Assembly: GCA_902573015.1 (NCBI GenBank)
Contig: CACGIE010000012.1
Location: 1 to 35,978, forward strand
Direction of reading: 5' to 3'
From: an uncultured Candidatus Poseidoniales archaeon
GTDB lineage: Archaea; Thermoplasmatota; Poseidoniia; Poseidoniales; Thalassarchaeaceae
Length of the DNA: 35,978 nucleotides
Shown: positions 3,727 through 29,041 of the stretch, in pieces
Numbering within the stretch: the first letter of the stretch is position 1
How the letters are laid out: each line of letters starts with the position of its first letter
Made by a program: the position numbers and the translations under genes
Notes under the pieces: model-generated
What the model saw: the letters and a program-made list of their open reading frames with translations, nothing else
Database searches by the model: none
Told to the model about the DNA's origin: nothing

Positions 3727-3810
3727 TTCGCGCCCCGACCCTAGCCAACGCTCTTGAGCCTAGGAACTCGCGACGATGGTGTGTTCTCCCTCAAACTGGT
3801 CCAACTACCA

Positions 3811-4866
3811 ATGCCATTGAGCAGCAGCGACCCTGACGTTCTGCTGGACTGGCTCTTGGAGTCGATGGGGTTGATCAGGAGGAGACAAGAGGTTCCGATC
3901 GGAGATATCCATTCCAGTGCACTCCACAGGATAATGAGGCATGCATTCCTAATTGACCCTCTCAAGGGATGGGACTCCAAGGAGCTCGGTGACGAGACCG
4001 GACTGTCAAACACCGGAGTCCACCATCAGATTTCCAAGCTTAGGGAGTGCGGACTAGTCTCTGCACACGTGGATGGTAAGTGGCACAGACACGTGCTCAG
4101 AGGCGGCTCAATTACAGCGGCAACGCGTCTGACTGGCTCTCAGGCAAGGTCGGTGCTCGCCGTCAGGCTGGCCGAGCTCTCCGCGATAGTCGAACCATCA
4201 GAGACTAGGATGGAGGTAGAATCTGAGGACGAAGACCCCCCATTCTCGATAAGGATAACAGAGAACCGTCCGAGGAGGGAGGGAATATCATCTGCAGACG
4301 AACTAGTAAGAGATCTCGGGCTCGCTGGAGACAACCCACGAGAGGAGGAAGACCTAGCGTTCCGAGTCCTCTCAGAAATTTGCTCCAGGGACCACCCAGT
4401 GACCCTGATCGCCCTCTCCGAGAGCCTGTCTGCCAGCAGGGGAAGGGTGAGCACCATAGTAGAGAGGATGAGAGCCTCGGGCATCGCCGAGAGGGTACCT
4501 ATGCTCGACCGCATACCCCAGGACGTTTTCTCAGCGTTGATGCGCCAGTACGATGCCAGAGGAGAGGGGTGGCTGATTACAAAGGGAGGTCTGGGGAGGC
4601 TCGATGAAAGCGTTTCTAAGGCCCTCTTGAAGGGAGTCATCGAGAGCTCCCTGGACATAGACGTGGTCAGGTCAACCCTCAGCACTGTTCCATCAGGGGC
4701 GCAGAGGGTTCTGCTAAACACTCTTGGAGGGAGGATGCCTTTCGGAGTCCGGATATCCTCTGCAGATCACGAGGGGGTTTCGGAGAGGGTAATGCGCCTG
4801 ACTGGCAGAGCCCTGAGAAGGATAGAAACCGTCGCGGAGAGGTTGGATGATTGTCTGGGAAAGTGA
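3811..4866 (+). CDS. Winged-helix regulatory protein, uncharacterised
   Basis: From this ATG the protein is 351 residues. The frame stays open to a TTG at 3754 and a GTG at 3781, so the start is uncertain. The first helix-turn-helix is clear: GWDSKELGDETGLSNTGVHHQISKL, followed by a short wing with WHRHVLRGG. A second possible helix-turn-helix lies in the middle (PVTLIALSESLSASRGRVSTIV). The last 100 residues are helical with no recognised domain. It follows two other helix-turn-helix genes on the same strand and probably belongs to the resident chromosome. The target is unknown. Confidence 0.7.
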   Translation: MPLSSSDPDVLLDWLLESMGLIRRRQEVPIGDIHSSALHRIMRHAFLIDPLKGWDSKELGDETGLSNTGVHHQISKLRECGLVSAHVDGKWHRHVLRGGSITAATRLTGSQARSVLAVRLAELSAIVEPSETRMEVESEDEDPPFSIRITENRPRREGISSADELVRDLGLAGDNPREEEDLAFRVLSEICSRDHPVTLIALSESLSASRGRVSTIVERMRASGIAERVPMLDRIPQDVFSALMRQYDARGEGWLITKGGLGRLDESVSKALLKGVIESSLDIDVVRSTLSTVPSGAQRVLLNTLGGRMPFGVRISSADHEGVSERVMRLTGRALRRIETVAERLDDCLGK

Positions 4867-4919: not shown

Positions 4920-6602
4920 GTGCCAGTATTCCTGGAACCTTCTCTTACCAGATTTAGCGTCAAACTCAGAGAGGATATTCATGATTGGTCAGAAGAACTG
5001 ACAGTAGACCTCGAGGAGTTCCCTTGCTCCATTCTGACAGGCATTAACGCCAGTGGAAAAACACTGTCGATGGGCGTGTTGCACCAATTATGCGACTTGC
5101 TAGTCGATTATGACGAAATCAAGAAAGAGAGACTAACAAATTTAGCGTTACAGGCAGGAATCGAGGAGGTCCGCGTCAGATTCGAGTATGAATGGTACTC
5201 TTCCGAGAGAGAGGAATCTTCGAAACTGTTCTGGTTTGGACTCAAAGAGGACATCTCCGGATACAATAGCCCGGAGGAACTTCAACAATCTTCTACTGAT
5301 TCCGAGACCTACAGGCGTCGCCTAGGTTCAGACCTTGTGGAAAAAGATGTTCGGTATGGCTCGCGAAGTCTTAACAGCAGAATAATTATTGATTTTGAGG
5401 CCAAGGCCATACGCAACCCAGACGACTCGTTTGATGGCGAATTACAACTCTCGCGAAGAGACGGGATATCATTCGATGTTCATCAGAGGATTTCAATATC
5501 TGAACCCCGCGGTCATCACGAGCCAGGCACAATTGCGACAATACCTACACCACGTTTTGAGGGACGAACCTTCAGAGAAGTTATCCTTGAAGATGAATTC
5601 AGGCTTTGCGCAACCGAAGATCTCCATGTCAGCGGCTTTGGCCCAATGAGGCTTTCAAAATCTTCGAAATCGAATGACTTCGCTGGAGACGCATGGAGGG
5701 AGATTCTGAGAGAAAGGACTGGAATTGCCTTCGATTACATGGATTACGCAGGGGAGGATTACTTTTTCGAAGATCCGAACATCATGCTTTCTTTCAAACC
5801 AATCTCTACAAGACTGTTGACCGTAGAAGGAGCATACAAGATCGACGAGGATACCAGGAAGGACTTGGAACGTGACATCTACCCCTTTTTCGCTCCGAGG
5901 GGTGAACTTTCAGTTAACCTCCTTATGGAGGCAATTTGGACCGAGCTCGTAAAGAAGCACAGAATGGAGTTTTCATTTAGGCGCCTCTGTGATGATCACC
6001 GCCCCACCGAAAGAGAACGGCAAGAAGCAATGGAAGATTGGTCGGAAGCCCTGGATCTGGGCTCCTCAATTGATGAAGAAGAATTTAGAGAGAGATATTG
6101 CACTACCTTGGCGATTTTTGAGATGTACGGTGTTAATTACAGTTACGATCACGGTCTCGTGGACTTCGAGGATGTACCAGCGGGCAAGTTCCATTGGGAT
6201 GACTTTGGCCCAGAGCCGATACCATTCGACGAGCAAACCTTAGAATACGAGATGCCGGAAAAAGCAAGAACTCTCCTAATAGAGAGTAGTCGAGAATTTG
6301 CTCTGTTCCACTCGCTCTCCAGGTTCCTTCCCTTCATTCACGAAATAATCCCCGAACACTTCTCCTCCGGACAGAAGCGACTGATCAACCTCCTCCTCGA
6401 TATCTCACTCTCCCCAGATGGATCTACGATCCTGATTGACGAACCCGAACTATCCATGCACATAGATTGGCAGGAAAAAATGGTTAGCTCCTTGATAGAA
6501 AGCTTCCCAAAACACAAATTCATCCTTGCAACGCATGCTCCTAGCATGGTAAAAGACCACCATGACTTGATTTTCTCGGTACCCCCAAGTGGTGAGACAT
6601 GA
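4920..6602 (+). CDS. ABC/OLD-type ATPase, PARIS AriA-like
   Basis: A 560-residue ATPase starting at a GTG. Walker A is GINASGKT (about residues 41-48). An ABC-type signature SSGQKRLINLLL lies near 481-492. Walker B with the catalytic glutamate is TILIDEPELSMH near 501-512, and the switch segment ILATHAPSM follows. The long insertion between these motifs is acidic. The next gene overlaps this stop by four bases and encodes a DUF4435 protein. In the known PARIS anti-phage system an ATPase (AriA) of this kind holds a DUF4435 effector (AriB) and releases it when a phage inhibitor of host defence is sensed. Assignment rests on this pairing. Another OLD-like or RecF-like ATPase with a partner nuclease remains possible. 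Confidence 0.72.
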   Translation: MPVFLEPSLTRFSVKLREDIHDWSEELTVDLEEFPCSILTGINASGKTLSMGVLHQLCDLLVDYDEIKKERLTNLALQAGIEEVRVRFEYEWYSSEREESSKLFWFGLKEDISGYNSPEELQQSSTDSETYRRRLGSDLVEKDVRYGSRSLNSRIIIDFEAKAIRNPDDSFDGELQLSRRDGISFDVHQRISISEPRGHHEPGTIATIPTPRFEGRTFREVILEDEFRLCATEDLHVSGFGPMRLSKSSKSNDFAGDAWREILRERTGIAFDYMDYAGEDYFFEDPNIMLSFKPISTRLLTVEGAYKIDEDTRKDLERDIYPFFAPRGELSVNLLMEAIWTELVKKHRMEFSFRRLCDDHRPTERERQEAMEDWSEALDLGSSIDEEEFRERYCTTLAIFEMYGVNYSYDHGLVDFEDVPAGKFHWDDFGPEPIPFDEQTLEYEMPEKARTLLIESSREFALFHSLSRFLPFIHEIIPEHFSSGQKRLINLLLDISLSPDGSTILIDEPELSMHIDWQEKMVSSLIESFPKHKFILATHAPSMVKDHHDLIFSVPPSGET

Positions 6603-7339
6603 CCAAAATACCCAGACTATTGGAGCAATTGAATGAGCCTTGGTGGGGCCCTACCATAGGGAAATTCTCATCCGGGAAAGCAGAACGCTTCCTGGTCTAC
6701 GTCGAGGGTGGTTTCGATGTACAATTCTTCCGTAGATCGGTATCAAGAACCATCAAAGAGAGAGTAGAGTTCAGGATCGCGGGCGGAAAAGACCAGGTAA
6801 TTGCTCTGGTCAAGAGGGACGACAAATCCTTCGGAGTCGTGGATATGGACTTCGATTTCAAAGATCACCAAATCGATCAACTTCCAATTATAGCTACAAA
6901 CTCTGATTGCTGCCTTTTCTGGAAACTTGTTCGTGAAATAGAAGGCGGAGAATTACAAGGCCTGATCACCAAGATCGTTAACAGATACGCCACTAATGGC
7001 GAGGCTCAACAGATGCATAACAGGATCCACAATGATCTCTCAGAAATAGTGGGCCAAATGGAAAAAGCGACCATTGAGAGGCTTTTTCGAGGGCATCATC
7101 GTGAAAAAGGGGGGGAGATCTCACATTTCGAGAAACATTTCAGCGAGCAAATCAACAAAGCAGGAATCAACGATCATGACTTCGAAGAATCGATCAAGAA
7201 CCTGTTCGAAGAGTTCGGCTCTAACATCGAACCGTATCAAATCCGATCTCAAATAAAAGAACATCTTCTGTCACCGGAGCACGCTGTAAAGAGCTCAAAA
7301 AGAGAGAAAATAGCGAACCGTTTTCTCAAACAACTGTGA
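6599..7339 (+). CDS. DUF4435 (TOPRIM-like) effector, PARIS AriB-like
   Basis: A 246-residue protein whose ATG overlaps the stop of the ATPase gene (ATGA), so the two are translationally coupled. The N-terminal half shows the TOPRIM-like layout of DUF4435: RFLVYVEGGFDVQFF (about residues 31-45) supplies the conserved glutamate, and FGVVDMDFDF (about 79-88) supplies the acidic DxD. The C-terminal half is charged and helical. In PARIS, AriB is the toxic nuclease unleashed by AriA; cleavage of host tRNA has been reported for the bacterial protein. The substrate of this archaeal relative is unknown. I cannot tell whether the pair belongs to the neighbouring mobile region. Confidence 0.7.
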   Translation: MTKIPRLLEQLNEPWWGPTIGKFSSGKAERFLVYVEGGFDVQFFRRSVSRTIKERVEFRIAGGKDQVIALVKRDDKSFGVVDMDFDFKDHQIDQLPIIATNSDCCLFWKLVREIEGGELQGLITKIVNRYATNGEAQQMHNRIHNDLSEIVGQMEKATIERLFRGHHREKGGEISHFEKHFSEQINKAGINDHDFEESIKNLFEEFGSNIEPYQIRSQIKEHLLSPEHAVKSSKREKIANRFLKQL

Positions 7340-7613: not shown

Positions 7614-7628
7614 AACTTGCAATTATTG
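7614..7628 (+). promoter_or_regulatory. AACTTGCAA promoter-like motif, copy 1
   Basis: AACTTGCAA, then TTATT, then a G at 7628 as possible transcription start. The predicted leader carries AAGGAG and reaches the ATG at 7651. It is the leftmost copy of the ten-copy motif and may mark the left limit of the module. Confidence 0.65.
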
Positions 7629-7650: not shown

Positions 7651-8262
7651 ATGAGAAGGAAGGTGGATTCGAGAACAGTATGGTCCCTAACGGCGATCAG
7701 GAACGGCAAGCAAGAGAATGCAGATGAGATTGAGAATGCTCAGTTCTACTACGGTAGGTGGCAATCAGAGGTTGATGGCTCTAGGCCCAAGAGACTCCCA
7801 AGCGGACTAATTGGGGTGATATGTGAATCCGGGATGGAACAAACTGCCATGGAGTCGGGTTTCGTAATCTCGATGAGTGTCTCTCCAGAAAATCGTGATT
7901 ACTGGACACGTTTCGTCTCCACAATCACGGTCAGGGAAATGGACAGCAGGCTCTTCCACGATACTCGGACACTTTTCTCTAGAGATGGGGGCGATATGGA
8001 CACAATCGAGTTCGTGGACCTGTTCAATCCATGTGCAGGTGGCATGCGCATGCCGAACAAAATATGGATGAGGGTAGACGAGCTCCCGATGAGCTCAATC
8101 GGATGGGCGATGAGTTCGGGTCTGATGGATGGTGAGAAGAGCAGGCAGACCGACCTCAGCAGGTGGATTGGGAAGCCGAAGGACAACGAGGTCATCCCCA
8201 AGGACATATTGGCGCTGCCAGGGCCTCCCAGCAGGGCGTACTCATTCGATGACACCGACTAG
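7651..8262 (+). CDS. Hypothetical protein convergent with the RNA polymerase
   Basis: A 203-residue protein of unknown family. The start is set at the ATG at 7651 because AAGGAG lies about ten bases before it and the promoter-like motif lies 37 bases before it. The frame is open further upstream, but that part would read through the motif and looks non-coding. The protein begins with a basic stretch and has mixed alpha/beta composition (SGLIGVICESGM, FVISMSVSPENRDYW, MDTIEFVDLFNP), with no membrane segment or metal motif. Its last bases overlap the end of the polymerase gene by four bases tail-to-tail, so transcription of one could affect the other. Confidence 0.7.
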   Translation: MRRKVDSRTVWSLTAIRNGKQENADEIENAQFYYGRWQSEVDGSRPKRLPSGLIGVICESGMEQTAMESGFVISMSVSPENRDYWTRFVSTITVREMDSRLFHDTRTLFSRDGGDMDTIEFVDLFNPCAGGMRMPNKIWMRVDELPMSSIGWAMSSGLMDGEKSRQTDLSRWIGKPKDNEVIPKDILALPGPPSRAYSFDDTD

Positions 8263-11200
8263 CTGATTAGGTAGTCCCCAGCGGTCCTTCCGGACTTTTC
8301 GGGGTCTTTCCAGAGAGAGCCTATCTTGACCCTACTTGTCTTCTTCTTGCCGACCCACTTCATCTCTGCGGTCCAATCGTTCAGGCTCCTTCCCTGGTGC
8401 ATATCGAAGAATACGGATTTCACTATCTCCCTCATCAGGTCGATGTCGCATGCATGGGTCCCGAAGGCATCGTGGACCGCCCAGAAGCTCAGATGGTCGT
8501 CCTCGCTCATCATCGTCCTCATCCTGTTTATCGAGGTCCTCATGTGGTATGCGTCGAGGGAGTGGACGAAGTTGGGGGGCATCGAGGAGTTCATCTTCCT
8601 CTTCCTTCCCTTCACCCTCTCCTTCTCGAATTTGCTGTAGTTTGGTATGGAGTACTCCCTCTGCCTCATTAGCCCTAGTATCTCTTTGGCCTCTTTGCTA
8701 TCTCCTCCGGCCTGTCTGACGATCGTCTCGAAACGAAGGCTCTCGAAATTGAACCTCTTCCCCTTTTCCAGTATTCTGTCTTTGGCGTCCCTCAGGAACT
8801 TCCTTGCCTCGGGCGCCAGTGATTCGTCCTCTTCGTACAGCTCGCAAGCCCTGAGTGCTATCCTCGCCTTGCTTTTTCCACCTTTGTGCCCCATCCAATT
8901 ATTCTTCTTGTACCAATCTGGTAGCAGACCGCTGTAGACGGAGCCGATGTGGGTTGGCTTCCCTGCCTTGGTCTTGTCAGCCCCATCCCGGCCGATGTAG
9001 TACTGGTGAACCCTGAAGCTCCCCTCATCCCCTGGCATGACGTCCCAGTACACGCCGGGCCAGAGCGCCGGCTTGCATGCCTCCGTAACTGCCCCGAGGG
9101 CCTCCTCGAGCTTTCCGTAGGCGTCTCTCGTCGCCTTGCCTATCGCCTTCATCATGATGTCCTTCATCAGAAGAGAGAGGCCGTGCTGATGCTCCCATAG
9201 ACTACCGTCAGGGTAGGCGAAGAGCTCGGCCAGATCGCCCCCTTTCGCAATTATCGCATCGTGGAGCCCGCTTCCCTGTGCCCAGAGGTTCACTGGCACC
9301 TCATCCCTGAGTAGCTTGGCCCACTTGTCGGCTCTCCCCTTCGAGAAACCACTTCCTACCTTCTTCTTGGCATGCTGCTGGTAGTGACTGACGGGCAGTC
9401 TCTCACCCAGTCTCCTCGCCTCTACAAATTCCAGATACGCCTCCTCGAACTCGACTGTTATCTCCTTCCTCTCGGCCTCCTCCTCCTCGCTGAGAACTCT
9501 AGGGAGCGGCATCGAGAAGTCAGGCCTGCCCTGTCCCTTCCTTCCCTCAAGGCACTTCAGCATGTCATTGCTGCCATAGACCCTGACGATTGTGGGTTGC
9601 TTTGCCAGGCTCCTAGTGAAGATCTTCTCTAGGCACTCCTCTATCAGGGACTCCTTGACTCCTATCTCCCCGAGGAACTCGCGAATCTTGTCTCTTCCGG
9701 CCTTATCCGCCTCCTTAGCCACCTCCGAGTACAGATCCAGTGGGCCCCTTCCCGAGTCGATGACGTTCGTGAGTCTGGCGAGCCTGACGTCACCTAGAAG
9801 CGAGGCCACGTGCTGGTAGCCATTGCAGGACGCATCGAGATAGACGGGCTGGCCGCTCTCGATGCTCTCCCACCCCTCGCCCTCGCCTCTTTCGAACTCG
9901 GACCACACCCTGTCCAGCTCGATAAGTGAGGCTAGCCTCTGGAAGTCAGTCCTCTTGCTGTACATCCTCTGGTCCAGTCCCAGTTCTACCAGGTACTGAT
10001 CCGGATGCCTGCCAATCTCCCTGAGTAATTTGAGGTTCTCTGTCACCCATTCGTCCCTGTACTCAAATTTCTGGTTCTTCTTGGCAGGGCCACTCTTCCA
10101 CCTCGAGGAGCGATTTCCGCCGTCATCAGGCTTGTCGAGGACCTCGATGCCCTCCATCAGGTTGTGGACATGGACATGGAACCAGAACCTGCCCCTCTCC
10201 CCCATGGGTTTCCATTCCTTGAAGCGCAATAGTGCTCTGCTAAGATCTCCCTTCTGCGGGCTTAGCAGCTGGCACCTCGGTACCATCCTCCCTCTGAAGT
10301 CGCACATCCAGGAGTGCCAGAAGACGTTCCCATTGTGTTCGATTATCCTCCTGCACCACTCGAGTACCATTCTCCTCTCGACATCGCCATTGTCCCCCTT
10401 CCCATCGAAGAATGCGGGTTCAAAAACCCCTTTTGGCATGATTCTCTTTATCCTGTCCTCCTTGTCCACCAGTCCGCCATCCAGGACAGTACCTCCGTCC
10501 ATCTGGAAACTGCAAACCTTCTCCAAAAGGTCTAGGTTGATTTCCCATTGGGTTTCTTGCAGTGTATTCATAGCCCTCATGATGTCGACTCCAGGCACGC
10601 ATCTCACGGTCTTGGCCATCTTCGGAACATCTCCTCCCATCTCTACCTCTCCCGTCTCGAGGTTCCTGACCTCCACTTCGAACATCTCGTAGTCACTTGT
10701 GTTGCTCGATATCTTGCGATCCCTCAGTAGCCCTCCAGCCCTGATTCCGCCCAACCACTCGTGCTTGTCCGGGGGGCAGTACATCCACCTATCTCTATCG
10801 CCTCTGAGCCATCTGTAGATGGCATTCTGGCGACCTTCCTCGAAGTCCTCCATTTTCGACTTCCCAATTATATCCTCGAGCTTCTTGGTGAACACGAGGT
10901 TGTTTGGGTATGGCTTTGGGCCCCTGCTCTTCGCCAGGGATTCGTCACCATCGAGGTAGTAGGACGTGTATTGCGCTGGAGTCATCTTCGCCGGGCGCAG
11001 TAGGCGCTCCCTCTTCATCTCGATAATAATGTTGTAAACGAACTTGAGGGTGTTGTGTTCATTGCATTCTTCGACGTTCTTGCTCTTCCCTACTCCTTGC
11101 AGGCTCCCGAATCCCTTGTTCCTGAATCTCTCCAGGGCCTCTTCTTCTTCTTCCTCCAAAGCGAACTTCTTCTGATCAAGACCCGCTTCCTTCCTCTTCT

Positions 11201-12461
11201 TCTTGTCGCCATATATCTCCAAAGCCTTGGCTCCCTCGCTCTCGATGTGCCTCCTAACTCTGGTCCTGACGTCTGGGAAGAAATTGATCCCAGCAGCCCA
11301 CACAAACATCCATCTCCACTCCCTCGGAGGCTCGACTTCCTCATCCAACAGTTTGGCTATCGTCATTCTGATTCGCTTCCTGTGGTGGAGGACGCTGAGG
11401 TTGGCCCCCATCCTCTCACGGTGTTTCTTGATCCTATCACGATCGATTTCACCCGTCTTACTGTCCGCGAAGTCTTCGGTGAATTCCTTCCTGGCCCTTT
11501 TTGCAGACACGAAGCACCCATTTGCCTTTGCGAACTCGAATAGCTGCTTCCCCTCGTTCACGTCCGAGCGCCATTCGAAGACCTCCCTATCTTCAGCCAT
11601 GGTGTTCGAAGAGTGGGAAATCAGGCACCTGGCCACCTCGTTGGCGACCTTCTCGACCACGTTCATCCTCCCATCCATCTTCCACCAATCCTCCAAGTCT
11701 ATCGATTGGTGGAACCCCTTGTCGAGCTGATCGAGGTGGAAGTCCCGCGCACTGGGTTCCAACCTGCCATTGATCTTCCGGATAACCGAAAGCTGCCTCC
11801 CCTCCATGCATTTGGTGGAACCAATTATCCTTTCATCGATTATCTCCTCTATCTTCTTCCGCACCCTCTCCCATGATTCGAGTGCCTCCTCTCTCTCCTC
11901 GTTTCTGTCCTCGTTCGAGAGGAACTTCGGGGAGGCCTCTCCTGCCGCGGCCTCCTCCACCTTGTCCTGTATCCAGGTTTTGAACTCGAAGTGCCCTGGG
12001 GTAAGGTCAGACTCCTCCCTGAGCCTGATTCTCGCCGGCTCGTCGTCTATCGACTTGGTCCTGTTGTCATTTTTGTCGTAGAAACCGATCTTCCTGAGCC
12101 TCGAGCTCTTCCATGTTCTCCAACCTCGTGATGCCCCCTTCGGTGGGGGAAGCCTCTTGCCCCGTTCGTAATTCCTGGAGAAGTAAGATCCGATCTTGTC
12201 CCTGTTAGTCGAAGCCTCGGGTTCAAACTCATCCTCTTCTTTTATCGGATCCTCATAGTCTACGTAGACCCCTTGCTTATTCGTGTAACTGAGCCTCAGT
12301 CTCGTCGAAGCGCCACATTCTCCACACTTCCTCACAGAGTCCCATTTGCTGTACACCTTACCCTTCTTCTTAGCATTCTTCGGTAGCGATAAGGAGACTT
12401 CGAATTTGTAGTCGCAGCGCCAGCAGACTATGCCATGGGTTCTGGACGTTTTCCCCGCCAT
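8259..12461 (-). CDS. Single-subunit (T7/mitochondrial-type) DNA-directed RNA polymerase
   Basis: A 1400-residue protein carrying the key polymerase motifs of the single-subunit family. Motif A is LDASCNGYQHVASLL with the metal-binding Asp876 (T7 Asp537). Motif B runs RSLAKQPTIVRVYG, with Arg950, Lys954 and Tyr962 at the same spacing as T7 Arg627, Lys631 and Tyr639. MPPNFVHSLDAYHM matches the T7 segment PNFVHSQDGSH. Motif C is VHDAFGTHACD with Asp1331 (T7 Asp812). The tyrosine in motif B is the residue that favours ribonucleotides in this family. The N terminus adds a zinc ribbon (Cys13, Cys16, Cys46, Cys49) and about 650 residues I cannot assign. At 1400 residues it is much longer than T7 polymerase (883) and nearer in size to mitochondrial enzymes. 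It is expected to transcribe the element's genes. Its own gene has a host-like TATA box and no AACTTGCAA motif. All catalytic residues are present and the frame is intact. Confidence 0.95.
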   Translation of the reverse strand: MAGKTSRTHGIVCWRCDYKFEVSLSLPKNAKKKGKVYSKWDSVRKCGECGASTRLRLSYTNKQGVYVDYEDPIKEEDEFEPEASTNRDKIGSYFSRNYERGKRLPPPKGASRGWRTWKSSRLRKIGFYDKNDNRTKSIDDEPARIRLREESDLTPGHFEFKTWIQDKVEEAAAGEASPKFLSNEDRNEEREEALESWERVRKKIEEIIDERIIGSTKCMEGRQLSVIRKINGRLEPSARDFHLDQLDKGFHQSIDLEDWWKMDGRMNVVEKVANEVARCLISHSSNTMAEDREVFEWRSDVNEGKQLFEFAKANGCFVSAKRARKEFTEDFADSKTGEIDRDRIKKHRERMGANLSVLHHRKRIRMTIAKLLDEEVEPPREWRWMFVWAAGINFFPDVRTRVRRHIESEGAKALEIYGDKKKRKEAGLDQKKFALEEEEEEALERFRNKGFGSLQGVGKSKNVEECNEHNTLKFVYNIIIEMKRERLLRPAKMTPAQYTSYYLDGDESLAKSRGPKPYPNNLVFTKKLEDIIGKSKMEDFEEGRQNAIYRWLRGDRDRWMYCPPDKHEWLGGIRAGGLLRDRKISSNTSDYEMFEVEVRNLETGEVEMGGDVPKMAKTVRCVPGVDIMRAMNTLQETQWEINLDLLEKVCSFQMDGGTVLDGGLVDKEDRIKRIMPKGVFEPAFFDGKGDNGDVERRMVLEWCRRIIEHNGNVFWHSWMCDFRGRMVPRCQLLSPQKGDLSRALLRFKEWKPMGERGRFWFHVHVHNLMEGIEVLDKPDDGGNRSSRWKSGPAKKNQKFEYRDEWVTENLKLLREIGRHPDQYLVELGLDQRMYSKRTDFQRLASLIELDRVWSEFERGEGEGWESIESGQPVYLDASCNGYQHVASLLGDVRLARLTNVIDSGRGPLDLYSEVAKEADKAGRDKIREFLGEIGVKESLIEECLEKIFTRSLAKQPTIVRVYGSNDMLKCLEGRKGQGRPDFSMPLPRVLSEEEEAERKEITVEFEEAYLEFVEARRLGERLPVSHYQQHAKKKVGSGFSKGRADKWAKLLRDEVPVNLWAQGSGLHDAIIAKGGDLAELFAYPDGSLWEHQHGLSLLMKDIMMKAIGKATRDAYGKLEEALGAVTEACKPALWPGVYWDVMPGDEGSFRVHQYYIGRDGADKTKAGKPTHIGSVYSGLLPDWYKKNNWMGHKGGKSKARIALRACELYEEDESLAPEARKFLRDAKDRILEKGKRFNFESLRFETIVRQAGGDSKEAKEILGLMRQREYSIPNYSKFEKERVKGRKRKMNSSMPPNFVHSLDAYHMRTSINRMRTMMSEDDHLSFWAVHDAFGTHACDIDLMREIVKSVFFDMHQGRSLNDWTAEMKWVGKKKTSRVKIGSLWKDPEKSGRTAGDYLIS

Positions 12462-12496: not shown

Positions 12497-12511
12497 AACT
12501 TGCAAATTTAG
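12497..12511 (+). promoter_or_regulatory. AACTTGCAA promoter-like motif, copy 2
   Basis: AACTTGCAA, then ATTTA, then a G at 12511. It lies in the divergent region between the polymerase gene and the plus-strand operon, 47 bases upstream of copy 3. The two may act as a tandem promoter for the gene at 12592. Confidence 0.6.
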
Positions 12512-12543: not shown

Positions 12544-12558
12544 AACTTGCAATTAATG
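12544..12558 (+). promoter_or_regulatory. AACTTGCAA promoter-like motif, copy 3
   Basis: AACTTGCAA, then TTAAT, then a G at 12558. The predicted transcript would begin with GAGGT, as would that of copy 7. The G is the first base of a perfect hairpin. Confidence 0.68.
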
Positions 12559-12577
12559 AGGTGGGCTTGCCCACCTC
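12558..12577 (+). promoter_or_regulatory. Perfect 9-bp hairpin at the predicted 5' end of the operon mRNA
   Basis: GAGGTGGGC and GCCCACCTC pair perfectly around a two-base loop (TT); a real RNA would open one or two pairs. The stem starts exactly at the proposed first transcribed base and ends 14 bases before the ATG at 12592. It could protect the 5' end or act as a regulator-binding site. Confidence 0.55.
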
Positions 12578-12591
12578 AAGGATGTGAGAAA

Positions 12592-13059
12592 ATGAAAGAT
12601 GGAAATGATATGGATAAAAACGGCAGTGTCGTGCTGCCAGAACTAACAGATGATGACAGAGACAGGGCTGAGAGCGAGGATAACTTGGCGTGGGCATATA
12701 GCCTGATGGAGTGGTACTCCCATGGAGCAGTGCACAAAGCGGAGGACCTTGGTTTGGTCTTCCAGGTGATAAAGGACCCAGAGTCGGACGAGTGTGGAAT
12801 CCGGGTCCTCTCCGCCTTTGAGGCTGAAACCTGCCTCACGTTCCTAGCCATGTTGGAGAGGACCTTCGTAAAGGCCCACTACAAGGTCGAAATAGAGCCC
12901 TACTTAGTTCTCCGTCCCTACACGCCGGCACCAGCCCACTCGCCCAGCTTCATGGTCGAAGAGCAAAATCGCGAGGATGAAGAGAACCCTCGGGAAGTGA
13001 GTGCTTCTGAGTCGCCTAAGGGGGGTACTGAGAGGCCAATAGCGATGGAGGTGGTCTAG
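12592..13059 (+). CDS. Hypothetical acidic protein, first gene of the ubiquitin-like module
   Basis: A 155-residue protein from the ATG at 12592. An in-frame TTG at 12547 lies inside the promoter-like motif and is unlikely to be used. The sequence is strongly acidic at both ends. The middle looks folded and helical (NLAWAYSLMEWYSHGAVHKAE), followed by VLSAFEAETCLTFLAMLE and a beta-rich HYKVEIEPYLVLRPY. The last 40 residues look disordered. No family is recognised. The next gene starts directly after its stop, so they form one operon; a GGAGGTGG just before this stop serves the next gene. Confidence 0.65.
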   Translation: MKDGNDMDKNGSVVLPELTDDDRDRAESEDNLAWAYSLMEWYSHGAVHKAEDLGLVFQVIKDPESDECGIRVLSAFEAETCLTFLAMLERTFVKAHYKVEIEPYLVLRPYTPAPAHSPSFMVEEQNREDEENPREVSASESPKGGTERPIAMEVV

Positions 13060-13305
13060 ATGCAGACAACAAAGAGCGAAGATGGTGGCACACCCCTCCC
13101 CCCCGAATCCAACCAGGATGGCGTAGGGACAGGGAAGGCCGTCCACCCGAATGCATACCACTCCGAGGCCTGCATGTCCTCGAGACAGGATGGGACGAGG
13201 TACTGCGGCTGGCTTTTGCATGGTCATCCATGGTGTGGGACCCACGGGCACCAGTGCGAAGACCTAGAACCCGAGGAGCCCGATATGAAAGGGAGGGGGC
13301 CGTGA
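13060..13305 (+). CDS. Small Cys/His-rich hypothetical protein
   Basis: An 81-residue protein beginning immediately after the previous stop, with GGAGGTGG about seven bases upstream of the ATG. The first third is polar and probably disordered. The middle contains regularly spaced metal ligands (HPNAYHSEACMSS, then YCGWLLHGHPWCGTHGHQCED), which suggests a small zinc-binding fold. Its stop overlaps the next start by one base. Function unknown; position suggests a component of the same operon. Confidence 0.6.
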   Translation: MQTTKSEDGGTPLPPESNQDGVGTGKAVHPNAYHSEACMSSRQDGTRYCGWLLHGHPWCGTHGHQCEDLEPEEPDMKGRGP

Positions 13306-13634
13306 TGTGGATCTTCACCACAAGCGGGTTCCTGAGCATCGTACAGCACAAGGACGCAGATGGGCACTTCCAGATCAAATCGAGAGTGAGAGTGCCTCTC
13401 GAGGTGCTCTGGCCGGACCACGAGATCATGGAGATAGGCTGGGCCGACTACAGATACAGGATAAACATCAGGAAGGACGACGCTATTCCCGTGTTAGTCG
13501 AGGAGATCAGGAAGGTCCTCTACACCAGCTTCAAGGACGAGTGCAGGGAGGACGAGGACTATCACCACGCCCTGTCTAGGGTCTGGTCCACGATGTACAA
13601 CTTCCAGACTCTCTGTGAGGGCAGGCGCCAATGA
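13305..13634 (+). CDS. Small conserved protein of the MW-x-FT...GF-S-V-V type
   Basis: A 109-residue protein. The start at 13305 is chosen because the ATG overlaps the upstream TGA by one base and follows GGGAGGGGG; the longer frame from 13230 would overlap the preceding gene. The N terminus MWIFTTSGFLSIVQHKD and the later IKSRVRVPLEVLWP, YRYRINI and YTSFKDECREDEDYHHALSRVWSTMYNF follow the pattern of a small uncharacterised family that I recognise from many bacterial genomes, with a beta-rich first half and helical end. No catalytic role is known to me. Confidence 0.65.
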   Translation: MWIFTTSGFLSIVQHKDADGHFQIKSRVRVPLEVLWPDHEIMEIGWADYRYRINIRKDDAIPVLVEEIRKVLYTSFKDECREDEDYHHALSRVWSTMYNFQTLCEGRRQ

Positions 13635-14563
13635 GGGAACTTGCAAGTGGGACGATGAAGATTGAACCACTTGATTCGGAACTGTACCAAGACGCGACCA
13701 CTGGGAGCTGGTTGCAGAGGGGCGGGTCCAGAATCGGGAAACCAGACGAGATAGACACCTCTGTACACGGAGAGTCCCCTAGGGAGAAGGCTCTGAGGAG
13801 ACAGGCCGTCACAGAGACGCTAGCCCCGCTGGACTTGCTTATCCAGATGCCACCTCCCGAACTGAGGGGTCTCGAACTCCTCCTCGACGTCCTCTCCTCA
13901 TGCGAGTCATTTCGCGTCACCTCAAGAGGGGGCGGCCTGGTAATCTGCAGACTCGACGAGGATGTGGATATCGAGATTCGAGTCGAGTACATGATAAGGG
14001 CGAGGCTCGAGATTCCCTGGGAGGGAAACGACTCTCTTAGCGGACTGCGCCCTCCCAACGATTTGCATCTGGCTTGCTCCATGCAACTAGTCGACAGCGA
14101 GTCAAGATGGCTGGCGGTGAATAACCACGGGAAGGATCGGGTAAGGGTGTGCCTGAGTAGCTACTACAGACTCTCTCCCGCAGAAGGCCGGAGGTGGGAT
14201 TGGGAGGAATATGACCTCCAAATCGAACTTGGTCAAGGGCCTTGGATGGAGGATCCTAGAACCGGGTTGTCGGTTCCAGATCTCGCTGCTCTCCTCCCTG
14301 TTACTGACTCCATCGTGTCATGGGCCCTCTGGGCCCAGTCCGGTTTCCCAAACCCCCCGGAATCGTTCATACTCGCCTACGAGCAACTGACCTCTCCCTA
14401 CGCATTCGATGGGTGCCTGCCAGAGTACATGACGGATGAGAACGGCTGGGAACCGTGGGACGACGAGTTCCAACAATCCATTTTCTGGGAGAGGCTTCTG
14501 GAGTCGGGGACCAGAGCCAGGAGGCACCCACAAAGAACTTGCAATGTCAGTGTCAGTGGTTGA
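13631..14563 (+). CDS. Unknown protein, possible E2-like (UBC/RWD) partner A
   Basis: A 310-residue protein whose ATG overlaps the previous stop. A second ATG at 13655 sits nine bases after an AACTTGCAA motif, so both starts may be used. Features that recall an E2 fold are a hydrophobic beta region (VDIEIRVEYMIRARLEIPW), then HGKDRVRVCLSSYYR with a candidate catalytic Cys174 seven residues after a histidine, then a helix SIVSWALWAQSGFPNPPESF that resembles the segment after the E2 active site. The next gene is a relative, sharing RGL-x-LL-x-VL near the start and VTD...WA-x-SGF. An E2 is expected in an operon with E1, ubiquitin-like and JAB genes. This is inference: no HPN box or proline-rich YP-x-x-PP loop is clear. 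Confidence 0.7.
   Translation: MRELASGTMKIEPLDSELYQDATTGSWLQRGGSRIGKPDEIDTSVHGESPREKALRRQAVTETLAPLDLLIQMPPPELRGLELLLDVLSSCESFRVTSRGGGLVICRLDEDVDIEIRVEYMIRARLEIPWEGNDSLSGLRPPNDLHLACSMQLVDSESRWLAVNNHGKDRVRVCLSSYYRLSPAEGRRWDWEEYDLQIELGQGPWMEDPRTGLSVPDLAALLPVTDSIVSWALWAQSGFPNPPESFILAYEQLTSPYAFDGCLPEYMTDENGWEPWDDEFQQSIFWERLLESGTRARRHPQRTCNVSVSG
13638..13646 (+). promoter_or_regulatory. AACTTGCAA motif, copy 4 (weak context)
   Basis: The nonamer lies at the very start of the gene at 13631, nine bases before an in-frame ATG at 13655. The following bases (GTGGG) are not AT-rich and the sixth is A, so it lacks the other promoter features. It may be a weak internal promoter or a coincidence. Confidence 0.3.
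14536..14550 (+). promoter_or_regulatory. AACTTGCAA motif, copy 5
   Basis: The nonamer runs into the ATG at 14544 (its last A is the A of ATG), inside the end of the preceding gene. A G does occur six bases on at 14550, but the five intervening bases (TGTCA) are mixed. If transcription begins at that G, translation would need a downstream GTG or ATG. Confidence 0.4.
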
Positions 14564-15353
14564 GGAATCGGTAGAAGAGAGAAGGCGGATGAACGAGTGG
14601 ATGGCCATCGAGGCCAACTTGGCCTCGGAGGATCTGAGGGAGATGATGCCCAGGGAGGAATGGAGGGGGCTCACGCTTTTGGTCAGCGTGCTGCACTCCT
14701 CGAAGGCATGCACCTCCATCGAGAGGGGGCGCATCGTGGCTCTGTATGACAGGGAGGTCGAGGTAGTCCTGATGTTCGAGTCGATGCTGATCAGGCGCAT
14801 AGACTGGCTAGCAGCCAACTCCAGTACTAACCCGCTGGTAAAGCCAGATTGCCACTTGCAAATCATCGTCAGGAGGAGATCGACAATGGCTGGACGGATA
14901 CTCCATCCGCATGAGAGGGACCTATGGAGCACCTCCCCGTGCATCGTAGCCACCGGTGCCGAGGGGCTGCCAGTGACGGACCTAGCCTCCTCCTTCGTAC
15001 TATGGGCTGACTCCGGTTTCCAACGTGAGCCCGAGACCCTGGTGGAGCAGGTCGCTTTAGTCAAGGGACCCGAGTCGTACGAAGAATTCCTCGAGGATAA
15101 GAAGCGCAGGGACAGGGAAAAGCGGCGCAGCCTCGAGAATCTCAGGAGGCGGTCCGTGATGGAAGCCACAAGGAGGCACCACGAGGAGGAGGGAAGGCGA
15201 CTCCTCCAAGACGAACTGGACCGAATCAGCGCCATGGGCTGGAGGGAGTTGATTCAGATGGAGAGGGATCTCTCAAATTCCCCCTGGGGGGTGAACCAGA
15301 GCATCAGGGCCGCGTCACAGGCGATATTGTATCCAGAGGAGAGAGAGATATGA
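14544..15353 (+). CDS. Unknown protein, possible E2-like partner B with coiled-coil tail
   Basis: A 269-residue protein overlapping the previous gene by 20 bases. It is a relative of that protein: EWRGLTLLVSVLHSSKACTS and VTDLASSFVLWADSGFQREP match its RGLELLLDVLSS and VTDSIVSWALWAQSGFPNPP. An E2-like reading is possible: strands VEVVLMFE and CHLQIIVRRR, then HPHERDLWSTSPCIV with candidate Cys133, then the helix. The last 90 residues, from LEDKKRRDREKRRS onward, are highly charged and likely coiled-coil. The longer upstream frame is rejected because it would lie inside the previous gene. No Shine-Dalgarno sequence is visible. The next ATG (15350) overlaps its stop. Confidence 0.7.
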   Translation: MSVSVVEESVEERRRMNEWMAIEANLASEDLREMMPREEWRGLTLLVSVLHSSKACTSIERGRIVALYDREVEVVLMFESMLIRRIDWLAANSSTNPLVKPDCHLQIIVRRRSTMAGRILHPHERDLWSTSPCIVATGAEGLPVTDLASSFVLWADSGFQREPETLVEQVALVKGPESYEEFLEDKKRRDREKRRSLENLRRRSVMEATRRHHEEEGRRLLQDELDRISAMGWRELIQMERDLSNSPWGVNQSIRAASQAILYPEEREI

Positions 15354-15409
15354 TTCGGGAGTTCAAATACTTAGCATCCACAATTAGAAACATCGAGGAG
15401 GTACGGATT

Positions 15410-15631
15410 ATGGAAAACGACAGAACAACCACCACGGTCGAGATCGCTGACCAGTCCGGGCACTCCACGCTGCAACTGACGAAGGAAGAGACTCTCGAGA
15501 GAGTCTCGGACTCGCCAGGAGCGTGGGTCTTCGCAAACAACCAGATGGTACAACCCGGACAGCTGCAGAATGCTGACTGGGGCACCATTGGTACTGTGAG
15601 GATTGTGCCCGGTCTCGTTGGCGGGGCTTGA
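15410..15631 (+). CDS. Ubiquitin-like protein 1, ends Gly-Gly-Ala
   Basis: A 73-residue beta-grasp protein from the ATG at 15410, which follows GAGGTACGG; an in-frame ATG at 15350 overlapping the previous stop would add 20 residues. The order of elements matches ubiquitin: strand TTVEIADQSG, strand STLQLTK, helix start ETLERVS, then WVFANNQMVQPGQL at the place of LIFAGKQLEDGRTL, then GTVRIVPGLVGG at the place of LHLVLRLRGG. The C terminus is Gly-Gly-Ala, so one residue must be trimmed before E1 could activate it. A JAB protease in the same cluster could do that. A near-identical paralogue follows. The start choice is supported by alignment with that paralogue. Confidence 0.88.
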   Translation: MENDRTTTTVEIADQSGHSTLQLTKEETLERVSDSPGAWVFANNQMVQPGQLQNADWGTIGTVRIVPGLVGGA

Positions 15632-15700: not shown

Positions 15701-15715
15701 AACTTGCAATTTAAG
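15701..15715 (+). promoter_or_regulatory. AACTTGCAA promoter-like motif, copy 6
   Basis: AACTTGCAA, then TTTAA, then a G at 15715. It lies 67 bases upstream of copy 7 and points at ubiquitin-like gene 2. Confidence 0.65.
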
Positions 15716-15767: not shown

Positions 15768-15782
15768 AACTTGCAATTATTG
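15768..15782 (+). promoter_or_regulatory. AACTTGCAA promoter-like motif, copy 7
   Basis: AACTTGCAA, then TTATT, then a G at 15782. The predicted transcript starts GAGGT, as for copy 3, and reaches the ATG at 15826 after 44 bases that include GGAGGT. Confidence 0.68.
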
Positions 15783-15825
15783 AGGTAAACAAATGATAGA
15801 ACATTCGAGAGAAGGAGGTAACCAT

Positions 15826-16044
15826 ATGGACACAGAGATAACGACAACTGTCGAGATCGCTGACTCCACCGGGCACACCACCTGCCAGATGACGAAGACT
15901 GAGACCTTGGAGAAGGTCTCTCAGTCACCTGGCGCGTGGGTCTTCGCGGGTGGCCAGATGGTGCAATCCCAGCAGCTGGAAACAGCAGACTGGGGCACCA
16001 TAGGCACCGTGAGAATAGTACCTGGTCTGGTCGGCGGCCTGTAG
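15826..16044 (+). CDS. Ubiquitin-like protein 2, ends Gly-Gly-Leu
   Basis: A 72-residue paralogue of the preceding ubiquitin-like protein. AAGGAGGTAACC before the ATG at 15826 fixes the start; the in-frame ATG at 15793 would add 11 residues. It keeps the ubiquitin plan: TVEIADSTG, ETLEKVS, WVFAGGQMVQSQQL (compare LIFAGKQLEDGRTL), GTVRIVPGLVGG. It ends Gly-Gly-Leu, again needing removal of one residue. It has its own promoter-like motifs, so the two paralogues could be made in different amounts or at different times. Candidate conjugation lysines are few (two), which may limit chain formation. Confidence 0.88.
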   Translation: MDTEITTTVEIADSTGHTTCQMTKTETLEKVSQSPGAWVFAGGQMVQSQQLETADWGTIGTVRIVPGLVGGL

Positions 16045-16151: not shown

Positions 16152-16166
16152 AACTTGCAAATTAAG
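16152..16166 (+). promoter_or_regulatory. AACTTGCAA promoter-like motif, copy 8
   Basis: AACTTGCAA, then ATTAA, then a G at 16166. That G is the first base of GTGATGAAAATG, so the transcript would carry only a three- or nine-base leader before an ATG. Confidence 0.65.
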
Positions 16167-16168
16167 TG

Positions 16169-17380
16169 ATGAAAATGAACAAAGATAACAACGTGGCCAT
16201 CGGTTGGGCCTGCAGGTCCCTCGAAGAGAGAGAGCTCTTCGGTGAAGGGCCGAACAAGAACGGAGGAGGCCCACATGAGTGTACAGAGGAGTCAATGTGC
16301 TCCTGGTGCAGTATGAAGGAGGAAACCATGGGAAAGTGCCTAAGATGCGGGGGGTTCACAGGCCTCGACTCCTTGTTCGATGATGATGGGTGGAGAAAAT
16401 CAGGTTTTGAGAAGCCGTCTGCAACCTGCTGCGAATATTTCGAAATGAGCGATGAAGAATGGGAGGCATGCAAAGAAATACAGTTGCTAGACAGAGAAGA
16501 CAGAAGGAAAAGAGCGGAAAAGGAATACCTAGAGGACGGGATCGCCCTAATTGGGAGCTTGAAGCACCCATCTCTAGATGCCCACAACAAGTCCATCGAT
16601 CTGTGCATCTCATCCTTGACTGACATATTCAACTCGGGAGAGCCAAGTTATCAGAACTGCCTAGAATCGCATAAAATCCTCGGAGTCGCTGGGAGTCCAC
16701 CAGTATATGCGCGCTCAATCATCAGTGTGCATGAAACTACTACCGACTATCAGAGGAACGATGGCGAAATGCGTATGGAAATCTCGTTCAGAGGAAAGGA
16801 GTCGGGCATAACATACAGGGTCGAACTAATCTATGCCCGTAACAATGCCAAACATCTGGCATCTCGTATAGACGAGGTCTTGGACGCGAACTCCTCATAT
16901 CCAGTCTCGGACGGTGTTCTGAAAGGCTTCATCAAGGCCACCGATTTCTTGAGGTTCCAGGTCAGCAGAGTCTCGAACGGAGGTGGGTGGGATTACCTAT
17001 GCATAGACCCGGGCGAGGATTTCGGTTTGTGGCCGGGAGATAGCGTGGCCGCGCTCCTAATGTGCCTCCACGATGACCTTAACACGGCTCTGGAGCCAGC
17101 GATGTACACTCTCAGAGGAGGTCTCAAAGAAGCGAGCAAGATGGCCTTCCTGAAGGGGAGATCCAAACTATCGATCCATAGGCTGATGGCATACGAGGTG
17201 GCGTACAACAGCATCAGGTCAGCGACATCTTCCATGCCCGCTGATGAGGTCTATGCACTGGTCTCTAGAATAAAGGAGAAGTTCTCAGATCCAGACTACG
17301 CTAGAGATAGACCGCCTGCCGAGGTCGATTACGGGTTGTTGCAGGAAGAGGCATGGGAAGGTGAGTGGAATGGCCATTGA
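16169..17380 (+). CDS. Unknown protein with N-terminal Cys cluster, in the ubiquitin-like operon
   Basis: From the ATG at 16169 the protein is about 403 residues; a GTG at 16166 and an ATG at 16175 are also in frame. Near residues 31-58 a likely zinc site is present (HECTEESMCSWC and CLRCGG). The middle is helical and charged. Around residue 270 the segment YLCIDPGEDFGLWPGDSVAALLMCL has a Cys before a W-x-P-G and a helix, loosely like an E2 active site. The same pattern recurs in the 641-residue protein at 20425-22350, so it is more likely a separate shared domain. The E1 gene start overlaps its end by 11 bases, which implies a linked function. Confidence 0.72.
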   Translation: MKMNKDNNVAIGWACRSLEERELFGEGPNKNGGGPHECTEESMCSWCSMKEETMGKCLRCGGFTGLDSLFDDDGWRKSGFEKPSATCCEYFEMSDEEWEACKEIQLLDREDRRKRAEKEYLEDGIALIGSLKHPSLDAHNKSIDLCISSLTDIFNSGEPSYQNCLESHKILGVAGSPPVYARSIISVHETTTDYQRNDGEMRMEISFRGKESGITYRVELIYARNNAKHLASRIDEVLDANSSYPVSDGVLKGFIKATDFLRFQVSRVSNGGGWDYLCIDPGEDFGLWPGDSVAALLMCLHDDLNTALEPAMYTLRGGLKEASKMAFLKGRSKLSIHRLMAYEVAYNSIRSATSSMPADEVYALVSRIKEKFSDPDYARDRPPAEVDYGLLQEEAWEGEWNGH

Positions 17381-18065
17381 AGCGGAAAAGAGAGAGTTCT
17401 CAGTAAACATCGTAGGCGCTGGAGGTATAGCCAGCTGGGTTTTGCACGGCCTAATCAGACCGGCCAGACGCTTCGCCCAAGTGACCGGCTCCAGTGTTAC
17501 CATCAGAGTATACGACTCTGACAGTGTGGATGACGACAACGTGCATCACCAGAACTTCCGACCATCAGACGTGGGTAAGACGAAGGTCGATGCACTATGC
17601 GGCGAGCTGTCAGAGTTCCAAGGCGATGAATTCTCCCTGGTCGCGTGCGAGTGGGACGTCAGAAGGGAGTCCGACTTCGAGGAAGCGGACCTGACCGTCG
17701 TCGCAGTCGACTCCCCGGACGCACGAGAGCTGGTCACCAAATCGAAGAAGTCGGGCAAGTGGGCAATCTGCACTTGCGCTGGCGACTCCTTCATGTTCCT
17801 GACCGAGGAGTCCTCCAAGCAGGCAGTCTCTATGGTCATAGAGAATGCCCAGAAGGGCGCCTCGTGCCAGTTACCCGGGGCGATATCCGAGGGTAAGATA
17901 GAGGCCGGAAACATGGCAGTCGCAGCAGTGGCACAGACCTGGGTCCTCCGCTCACTGAGAGGGATGTCAGGGGAGGAAGGGGCGAAGGTCCCGGTCTCTC
18001 GAGCGGAATCCACAGTCCTGGGGACTCTGGGAGTGCTGTCCGAAAGCGAGGGAGGGGGGATATGA
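17370..18065 (+). CDS. E1-like ubiquitin-activating (ThiF/MoeB-type) enzyme
   Basis: A 231-residue adenylating enzyme. The ATG at 17370 is preferred because AAGGTGAG precedes it; a GTG at 17361 is the alternative. The Rossmann ATP site is IVGAGGIASW (residues 14-23). The E1 signature follows: YDSDSVDDDNVHHQNF, then DVGKTKVDAL, supplying the Asp, Asn, Gln and Lys that position ATP and Mg. Candidate active cysteines are Cys166 in GASCQLPG and the pair in ICTCAGDS. The protein has only the adenylation domain, like prokaryotic E1 proteins in ubiquitin-like operons. It would adenylate the C-terminal Gly-Gly of the two ubiquitin-like proteins after trimming. The JAB gene overlaps its stop by four bases. 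Confidence 0.92.
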   Translation: MAIEAEKREFSVNIVGAGGIASWVLHGLIRPARRFAQVTGSSVTIRVYDSDSVDDDNVHHQNFRPSDVGKTKVDALCGELSEFQGDEFSLVACEWDVRRESDFEEADLTVVAVDSPDARELVTKSKKSGKWAICTCAGDSFMFLTEESSKQAVSMVIENAQKGASCQLPGAISEGKIEAGNMAVAAVAQTWVLRSLRGMSGEEGAKVPVSRAESTVLGTLGVLSESEGGGI

Positions 18066-20345: not shown

Positions 20346-20357
20346 TTATTGCAAGTT
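20343..20357 (-). promoter_or_regulatory. AACTTGCAA promoter-like motif, copy 9
   Basis: On the minus strand AACTTGCAA, then TAAAT, then a G at 20343. It points at the small membrane-protein pair. It is one of two minus-strand copies and obeys the same orientation rule. Confidence 0.65.
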
Positions 20358-28974: not shown

Positions 28975-29010
28975 TAAATCGACGATTTCATAATAACGAA
29001 CGAATTGTAA

Positions 29011-29020: not shown

Positions 29021-29041
29021 TCACAACTTCACACAGCAATC

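Follow-up and report, generated by a model that had tools for sequence, protein, structure and literature searches.

A single-subunit RNA polymerase encoded within a patchy cassette of ubiquitin-like genes in the chromosomes of Poseidoniales archaea

We describe a stretch of 35,978 nucleotides, hereafter the window, which is the entire contig CACGIE010000012.1 of a 1.08-Mb genome, 63% complete, of an uncultured Candidatus Poseidoniales archaeon (assembly GCA_902573015.1). The window carries a gene for a single-subunit, T7-like RNA polymerase (RNAP), a type of enzyme known from phages, mitochondria, plastids and organellar plasmids. The gene stands in a cassette that also encodes ubiquitin-like proteins (Ubls), an E1-like Ubl-activating enzyme and a JAMM metallo-isopeptidase. 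In the window the word AACTTGCAA is repeated ahead of genes, and the cassette lies between two host genes that adjoin each other in related genomes.

Results

The polymerase gene and protein

8259..12461, minus strand: single-subunit (T7-like) RNA polymerase of 1400 residues, motifs A, B and C intact, added N-terminal zinc ribbon (profile, structure and alignment matches)

The open reading frame (ORF) runs from an ATG at 12461 to a stop at 8259 with no internal stop. It bears out the complete 1400-residue gene that a preliminary description of this DNA had placed here, to which the strand can now be added. The search with an RNA_pol profile that this description had proposed recovered the family: PF00940 matched with E=2.2e-43 and 149 bits, against a curated cutoff of 22. 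PHROG 414 RNA polymerase was matched at 2.6e-68, the PDB matches were yeast and mammalian mitochondrial RNAPs and T7 RNAP, and a family profile matched T7 RNAP at 7e-54 and mitochondrial RNAP at 2e-51. The alignment columns of motifs A and C coincide with those of the T7, yeast and mammalian enzymes. When the protein is aligned with three close relatives, D876, R950, K954, Y962, H1330 and D1331 are invariant, in agreement with the intact motifs A, B and C described earlier on the strength of five of these residues (Asp876, Arg950, Lys954, Tyr962 and Asp1331). Based on these matches, we regard the ORF as a genuine single-subunit RNA polymerase.

The zinc-ribbon pattern noted earlier at the N-terminus is present (C13xxC16, C47xxC50). 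The three close relatives begin C-terminal to it; the ribbon is thus an add-on of the window enzyme, and we rejected it as a hallmark of the family. Most members of the archaeal clade are 1200-1500 residues long and their N-terminus is variable. The structure prediction envisaged for this region was less informative, as the model of residues 1-720 has a predicted local distance difference test score (pLDDT) of 61 and no usable fold match; a weak match to the zinc-ribbon ribosomal protein S27e is compatible with a zinc ribbon only. In one close pair of genomes (G070/G073) the ratio of nonsynonymous to synonymous substitution rates is 0.38 for the RNAP and 0.02-0.09 for flanking genes, which indicates that the polymerase is constrained, though less so than its flanks.

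Host, contig origin and distribution

The contig is archaeal and belongs to Marine Group II (Poseidoniales), in the genus of 'Ca. Thalassarchaeum' MGIIb-O3. The window genes at 2-2119, 2556-3014 and 3076-3726 encode proteins 95, 99 and 96% identical to those of chromosomal genes of G338, the Ca. Poseidoniales genome AG-457-A01. On the basis of their 'AG-' isolate names we take this genome and G052 (AG-461-G23) to be single-amplified genomes; they carry RNAP relatives on contigs of 77 and 62 kb, respectively. These single-cell contigs and the near-identical left flank make a binning chimera very unlikely. The flanking genes also settle the archaeal origin of the contig, for which the preliminary description had offered only neighbours 'archaeal in style'; that impression holds for the flanks, and what it had missed are the Ubl cascade, the repeated motif and the empty site described below, besides the lack of the zinc ribbon in relatives. 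RNAP homologues with continuous ORFs lie on chromosomal contigs of other Poseidoniales, amid chromosomal flanks in several genera, and an alignment-based scan of GTDB representative contigs placed the named relatives in Poseidoniales / Thalassarchaeaceae.

PF00940 was matched in 21 of the 340 genomes of the window's class. This count is a lower bound, since RNAP-type loci of G330, G100, G154 and G296 end at a contig edge before the polymerase. Among 390 genomes sampled across the phylum, matches occurred only within the window's class (7 genomes). Two bins call for comment. An RNAP-Ubl cassette on contig L062 (PBSS01000008) is filed under an Acidimicrobiaceae bin; it is probably mis-binned, as the genes recognized on it correspond to those of the Poseidoniales cassette and its RNAP falls together with that of G338 (SH-like approximate likelihood ratio test, SH-aLRT, 99), so that phylogeny and gene content point to Poseidoniales. 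Conversely, contigs L039 and L040 within the Poseidoniales bin G163 carry phage-type RNAPs and are probably phage contigs mis-binned with that genome. Rfam and tRNA searches found none.

Phylogeny of the polymerase

A tree of 39 RNAP sequences was built by quick search with phage and mitochondrial members, as the preliminary description had advised; it holds two partial mitochondrial rows (~30% filled) and was computed without plastid or linear-plasmid members. The 20 Poseidoniales polymerases form one clade (SH-aLRT 98) on a long stem, which includes a second group (G049, G045 and G171) and the long-branched G059. The Autographiviridae and IMG/VR enzymes sampled lie outside this clade, as do the two partial mitochondrial rows and the two phage-like polymerases of G163. 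The archaeal enzymes are thus not members of the Autographiviridae RNAPs, given their separate clade and chromosomal flanks, nor do they branch with the mitochondrial enzymes, the rows of which are only ~30% filled.

In the second group, HMG-box domains are found inside the polymerases of G049 (L036:6758-10864) and G045 (L037:2304-4907). The G049 protein matches PF00505 at residues 582-635 (1.2e-11) and HMG_box_2 at 1145-1199; the G045 matches are weaker. HMG boxes are otherwise mainly eukaryotic and form the DNA-binding domain of mitochondrial TFAM.

Gene content of the cassette and its relatives

The other genes of the cassette are as follows.

7651..8262, plus: fam9 protein, no function assigned; common to the G338 and G258 cassettes
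12547..13059, plus: fam4 protein, no function assigned; common to G332, G338, G070 and G073
13230..13634, plus: fam6 protein (MWIFT..GFLSIVQH); common to G338, G332, G070 and G073
13631..14563, plus: X-domain protein 1 (putative E2-like)
14436..15353, plus: X-domain protein 2 (putative E2-like, candidate active-site Cys)
15350..15631, plus: ubiquitin-like protein 1, C-terminus ...RIVPGLVGGA
15793..16044, plus: ubiquitin-like protein 2, C-terminus ...RIVPGLVGGL
16166..17380, plus: fam10 X-domain protein (putative E2-like, ...YLCIDP...LWPGD...)
17361..18065, plus: E1-like (ThiF) Ubl-activating enzyme
18062..18559, plus: JAMM metallo-isopeptidase (E58, H96, H98, S105, D108)
18561..18800, plus: fam24, small protein adjoining JAMM in the window and in sister cassettes
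18914..19885, plus: TFB-like zinc-ribbon protein
20425..22350, minus: fam2, with a CxxC/CxxC zinc finger at the N-terminus and a putative E2-like domain (C423) at the C-terminus

In the equivalent position of its chromosome, G338 has a syntenic, strongly diverged set comprising fam9, RNAP, fam4, fam6, X-domain proteins, Ubl, E1, JAMM, fam24, a TFB-like protein and the zinc protein fam2; identity to the window is 35% for RNAP, 41% for E1 and 60% for JAMM. The combination of RNAP, E1 and JAMM, often with fam2, recurs at other chromosomal sites in G055, where the cassette has just five genes, and in G070, G073, G088, G052, G295 and G153; in G191 an RNAP with fam2 and a TFB-like protein likewise stands at another site. 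The polymerase cassette is patchy and chromosomal, and probably horizontally exchanged. In relatives its components are also fused to one another, as Ubl-Ubl-E1 (G153), Ubl-Ubl-X domain (G052), Ubl-AAA ATPase (G295) and E1-JAMM (G247, G229, G226 and G258), and these fusions support a single pathway. In the G295 protein (L041:4550-6223) the ATPase is a relative of proteasome-activating nucleotidase/FtsH, a hint that targets tagged with the Ubl may be handed over to an unfoldase.

The JAMM profile matched 149 of the 332 genomes of the class searched with it (~45%), including 22 of 38 high-quality ones. The modules examined include chromosomal Ubl/E1/JAMM sets without RNAP, with or without TFB-like and fam2 proteins; on the complete chromosome G056 such a module adjoins homologues of the window's flank genes. 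As RNAP-free modules are common, the polymerase looks like an optional addition to a widespread archaeal module, and we dropped the idea that the entire cassette is one mobile element.

The ubiquitin-like cascade

Both Ubls end in a di-glycine followed by one residue (LVGGA and LVGGL), and the pattern ADxxGH..PGLVGG is largely common to ten aligned Ubls. Their best PDB profile matches are polyubiquitin, the strongest E-values being inflated by repeats; diubiquitin is matched at ~0.004-0.006, and the hhalign value is 0.012, values that make the Ubls candidates for a beta-grasp fold. The E1 matches ThiF at 7.6e-13 and the structures of MccB and ubiquitin E1 at ~1e-9, as expected of an adenylation enzyme. 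In the JAMM protein the ligands E58, H96, H98 and D108, together with S105, are invariant among nine members (E, HxHP, SxxD), as in an isopeptidase, and the best PDB matches are AMSH isopeptidases (E 0.006).

A further domain, which we call the X domain, is common to fam2, fam5, fam10 and proteins of G052, G258 and G332 (hhalign probability 75-95%). C423 of fam2 is invariant in 16 sequences, and its context, xICIx...(L/P)xxGDxxxSVVLxLxDD, resembles the E2 active site GxICLxIL...WSPxxTIxxVLLSI. The predicted structure (pLDDT 75) shows a helix, four strands, the Cys loop and helices in the order of the UBC fold. Based on these features, we interpret the X-domain proteins as putatively E2-like.

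IMG/VR phage contigs (L194-L212, L216-L218 and L221-L222) also have operons that combine relatives of the archaeal X-domain, Ubl and E1 proteins. On L200 a JAB gene was confirmed by Pfam and the di-glycine end of the Ubl was read. These contigs suggest a wider viral history of the Ubl machinery, possibly with a recurrent link to transcription factors.

Insertion site and neighbouring islands

3754..4866, plus: helix-turn-helix (HTH) regulator that bounds the insertion site on the left
4920..7339, plus: PARIS-like AriA/AriB pair between the HTH gene and the RNAP cassette
22464..23249, plus: divergent allele of the S51 peptidase, which bounds the RNAP cassette on the right

An empty site is seen in G323, G324 and G336, where the HTH and S51 peptidase genes adjoin, a few tens of bp apart. 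The alignment of G336 with G338 breaks off where the HTH gene ends and picks up again at the S51 gene of G338's contig 25, a contig that starts with the missing part of fam2. The PARIS-like pair is absent from G338, and the site holds other genes in G339, G327 and G332. The window's HTH gene and full S51 gene are only ~61-64% identical to those of G336 and G338, as against 89-91% for an S51 fragment at 33385-33684. We infer that a divergent segment from ~3.75 to 33.4 kb entered as a unit and brought with it the PARIS-like pair, the RNAP cassette and a further, second island. The native C-terminal S51 fragment and the divergent full copy at 22464-23249 would be the scar of island import by recombination. 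The second island (23280-33354) encodes a PbeA-like helicase, a HATPase_c_3 protein (a GHKL ATPase with a weak MzaB match), a protein with a weak DpdB match, a SAP-domain protein, an Eco57I-type methylase and a T5orf172/MUG113-domain protein, and is probably a restriction or modification system. The HTH/S51 site looks like a defence-island hotspot.

A repeated motif as candidate promoter

The word AACTTGCAA occurs ten times in the window against 0.12 expected, and none of 100 shuffles had as many. The whole 1.08-Mb assembly holds 14 copies, ten of them within this 3.3% of its length.

7614..7622, plus: AACTTGCAA, 37 nt ahead of the in-frame ATG (7651) of the fam9 gene
12497..12505, plus: AACTTGCAA, the first of two tandem copies ahead of the 12547 gene
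12544..12552, plus: AACTTGCAA upstream of the 12547 gene
13638..13646, plus: AACTTGCAA, in-frame ATG 17 nt downstream
14536..14544, plus: AACTTGCAA, in-frame ATG/GTG at 8/14 nt
15701..15709, plus: AACTTGCAA, the first of two tandem copies ahead of Ubl2
15768..15776, plus: AACTTGCAA upstream of Ubl2
16152..16160, plus: AACTTGCAA upstream of the 16166 gene
20349..20357, minus: AACTTGCAA upstream of a 92-residue minus-strand ORF
33385..33393, minus: AACTTGCAA upstream of a 197-residue minus-strand gene

Every site is on the strand of the next gene. The eight gene-proximal sites have an in-frame start codon 8-39 nt on, on the same strand; the other two are the upstream copies of the tandem pairs. 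The five bases directly behind the word (+9 to +13) are for the most part A or T, and the next one (+14) is always a purine, with G at eight of the ten sites. This arrangement resembles the T7 promoter layout of a recognition element, an AT-rich melting element and a purine start. The RNAP gene itself lacks a copy on its strand. Related words occur in sister cassettes, namely TTACTTGCC in G338, ACTTGCAAGT in G332 and, weakly, AACTTGCCA in L062, and no such motif was seen in four RNAP-free Ubl modules (G339, G332, G226 and G247). The motif is confined to the window/G338/G332/L062 group, and the notion that it is common to all cassettes was rejected. We consider AACTTGCAA a candidate cognate promoter of the window RNAP; motif and polymerase vary together, as one would expect of such a pair, and the palindromic core of the motif leaves room for a regulator.

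Discussion

Proposed function

What might a single-subunit polymerase do in a cassette of this kind? Reasoning from sequence, we propose that the window encodes an active single-subunit RNAP of a distinct archaeal clade, set in an exchanged Ubl cassette that is most likely antiviral, a proposal to which we give an even chance of being right. The results above establish what the polymerase is, its origin from an archaeal chromosome, its recurring gene partners, the empty site and the enrichment of the motif; enzymatic activity, recognition of the promoter, the E2 role and defence are inferred. The host RNA polymerase would transcribe the RNAP gene, which has no motif of its own. The single-subunit enzyme may then initiate at AACTTGCAA-WWWWW-R sites ahead of the cassette operons and express the Ubl machinery independently of the host multisubunit polymerase. 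The JAMM protein would remove the residue or residues behind the di-glycine of the Ubl and also reverse conjugation, E1 would activate the Ubl, and the X-domain zinc proteins may pass it to a target. The purpose of such an arrangement would most likely be an antiviral defence that keeps working after a virus has silenced or taken over transcription by the host. Defence is favoured by exchange at a hotspot, patchiness, divergence and the PARIS-like neighbours; the PARIS-like pair and restriction/helicase genes lie alongside the cassette. In its general form, that of a cellular, non-viral and non-organellar use of such an RNAP in an immune (or regulatory) cassette, where an orthogonal polymerase-promoter pair expresses a Ubl cascade, the idea is put forward tentatively, as something short of an even prospect.

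Several results weigh against this proposal. The RNAP was found in none of the 38 high-quality genomes searched, and it is dispensable for Ubl modules, judging by JAMM in 149 of 332 genomes. No T7-like promoter-binding domain was seen in the N-terminal model of the polymerase, itself a poor one (pLDDT 61). The motif was not found in the more divergent RNAP cassettes G055, G070, G073, G052, G286, G287 and G153. Its core, TTGCAA, is palindromic, as is the entire G332 word ACTTGCAAGT, and this symmetry would also suit a dimeric regulator. As for the E2-like assignment, UQ_con is the sole Pfam family matched by the X domain, weakly and in one of six segments (E=0.12); Foldseek with fam2 gave nothing significant, its several E2/UEV matches all having E above 1; and hhalign of the X domain with a small set of four E2 sequences reached E=0.025, the JAMM control reaching 0.037.

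Other explanations

The main rival is that the cassette is a transcription/regulation module or remnant of a Poseidoniales mobile element or virus, such as an integrative element, a satellite or a domesticated provirus, whose RNAP serves the element's own expression. Its patchy distribution, its insertion between two host genes and the fast divergence of related RNAPs (35-39%) fit this explanation, single-subunit RNAPs elsewhere serve phages and plasmids, and X-domain, Ubl and E1 genes lie together on ~24 IMG/VR phage contigs, in 10 cases near a sigma-70-like gene. However, integrase, replication, capsid and terminase genes were not recognized in the window cassette and none is evident in the five-gene cassette of G055, the RNAP-free Ubl modules are widespread chromosomal loci, as on the complete chromosome G056, and scans of IMG/VR turned up neither an RNAP of the archaeal clade nor the archaeal JAMM. 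We regard a mobile-element origin as a minority prospect that deserves to be taken seriously, and defence and such an origin can both be true together. A virus of Poseidoniales was dropped as a candidate, because three papers on magroviruses and related viruses mention neither RNA polymerase nor ubiquitin and the IMG/VR scans recovered no clade member. Nearly as much weight as to a mobile-element origin, though it is still an unlikely outcome, is given to AACTTGCAA being an operator for a regulator of the cassette, for example the TFB-like protein encoded in the same cassettes, with the RNAP transcribing something else. The palindromic core, complete in G332, would suit an operator; the directional extension of the motif (AAC before the core, A/T-rich sequence and then a purine after it) and the co-orientation of sites with genes would not, and the motif is missing from RNAP-free modules that keep the TFB-like protein.

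It is rather improbable, in our estimation, that the cassette is a host regulatory or stress system, in which the Ubl modifies host transcription proteins (e.g. TFB or RNAP subunits) and the RNAP is a condition-specific second polymerase. Ubl/E1/JAMM modules are indeed present in ~45% of the class, often at conserved loci with a TFB-like protein, and one study reports that TBP2 of Haloferax is Ubl-modified and degraded (PMC4895103). Yet the RNAP is present in just 21 of 340 genomes, ten of the 14 genomic motif copies lie inside the window, leaving few host genes as possible targets, and the rapid divergence and hotspot location also speak against such a system. That the RNAP contig is phage or bacterial DNA joined to this genome by assembly or binning seems barely credible. 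The phage-type RNAP contigs of G163 and the filing of L062 under Acidimicrobiaceae suggest that such errors do occur among the bins; for the RNAP family as a whole a chimera was rejected on the evidence of the single-cell genomes and the chromosomal flanks.

Relation to known systems and significance

The archaeal enzyme has the catalytic core of the T7-like Autographiviridae RNAPs (PF00940), with the same motifs A, B and C and DxxGR region. It differs from them in that the archaeal genes are chromosomal, fall outside the sampled phage clade, have no phage genes around them and bring added DNA-binding domains (the zinc ribbon in the window, HMG boxes in G049). POLRMT/Rpo41 belong to the same catalytic family at a comparable profile distance; the archaeal RNAP is on a separate branch and is not organellar, and no relative of the mitochondrial N-terminal region was recognized in it by Pfam. 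Bacterial antiviral Ubl systems (BilABCD, Bub and the type II CBASS E1/E2/JAB) are compact operons of Ubl, E1, E2 and JAMM/JAB. The window cassette is likewise a compact operon of Ubl, E1, putative E2 and JAMM, but it is archaeal and has several X-domain proteins, a TFB-like protein and a single-subunit RNAP; PADLOC returned just weak E1-E2 matches to the window E1. The archaeal SAMP system (UbaA/SAMP/HvJAMM) also combines a Ubl with a di-glycine end, an E1 and a JAMM protein, whereas the window cassette is a clustered operon with X-domain proteins and an RNAP, and the E1 of a relative is only distantly related to UbaA. The nearest NCBIfam model of the window E1 is PRTRC_ThiF of the PRTRC plasmid system, but the score of 62.5 bits is far under the cutoff of 144.75, the JAMM protein matches no NCBIfam model and an RNAP is present. 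No other PRTRC model was matched among the proteins scanned, so that the cassette does not belong to that system. In the literature covered, which excluded preprints and most subscription papers, no description of an archaeal single-subunit RNAP or of this cassette was found, which does not by itself establish novelty.

The existence of a deep clade of chromosomal archaeal enzymes matters for the origin of the single-subunit RNAP family, and it is an instance of a cell that retains a second RNA polymerase unrelated to its first. If true, a Ubl cascade joined to a cognate promoter that varies between sister cassettes would be a new route to host-independent expression of a cassette. The archaeal cassettes may also offer candidate new orthogonal polymerase-promoter pairs.

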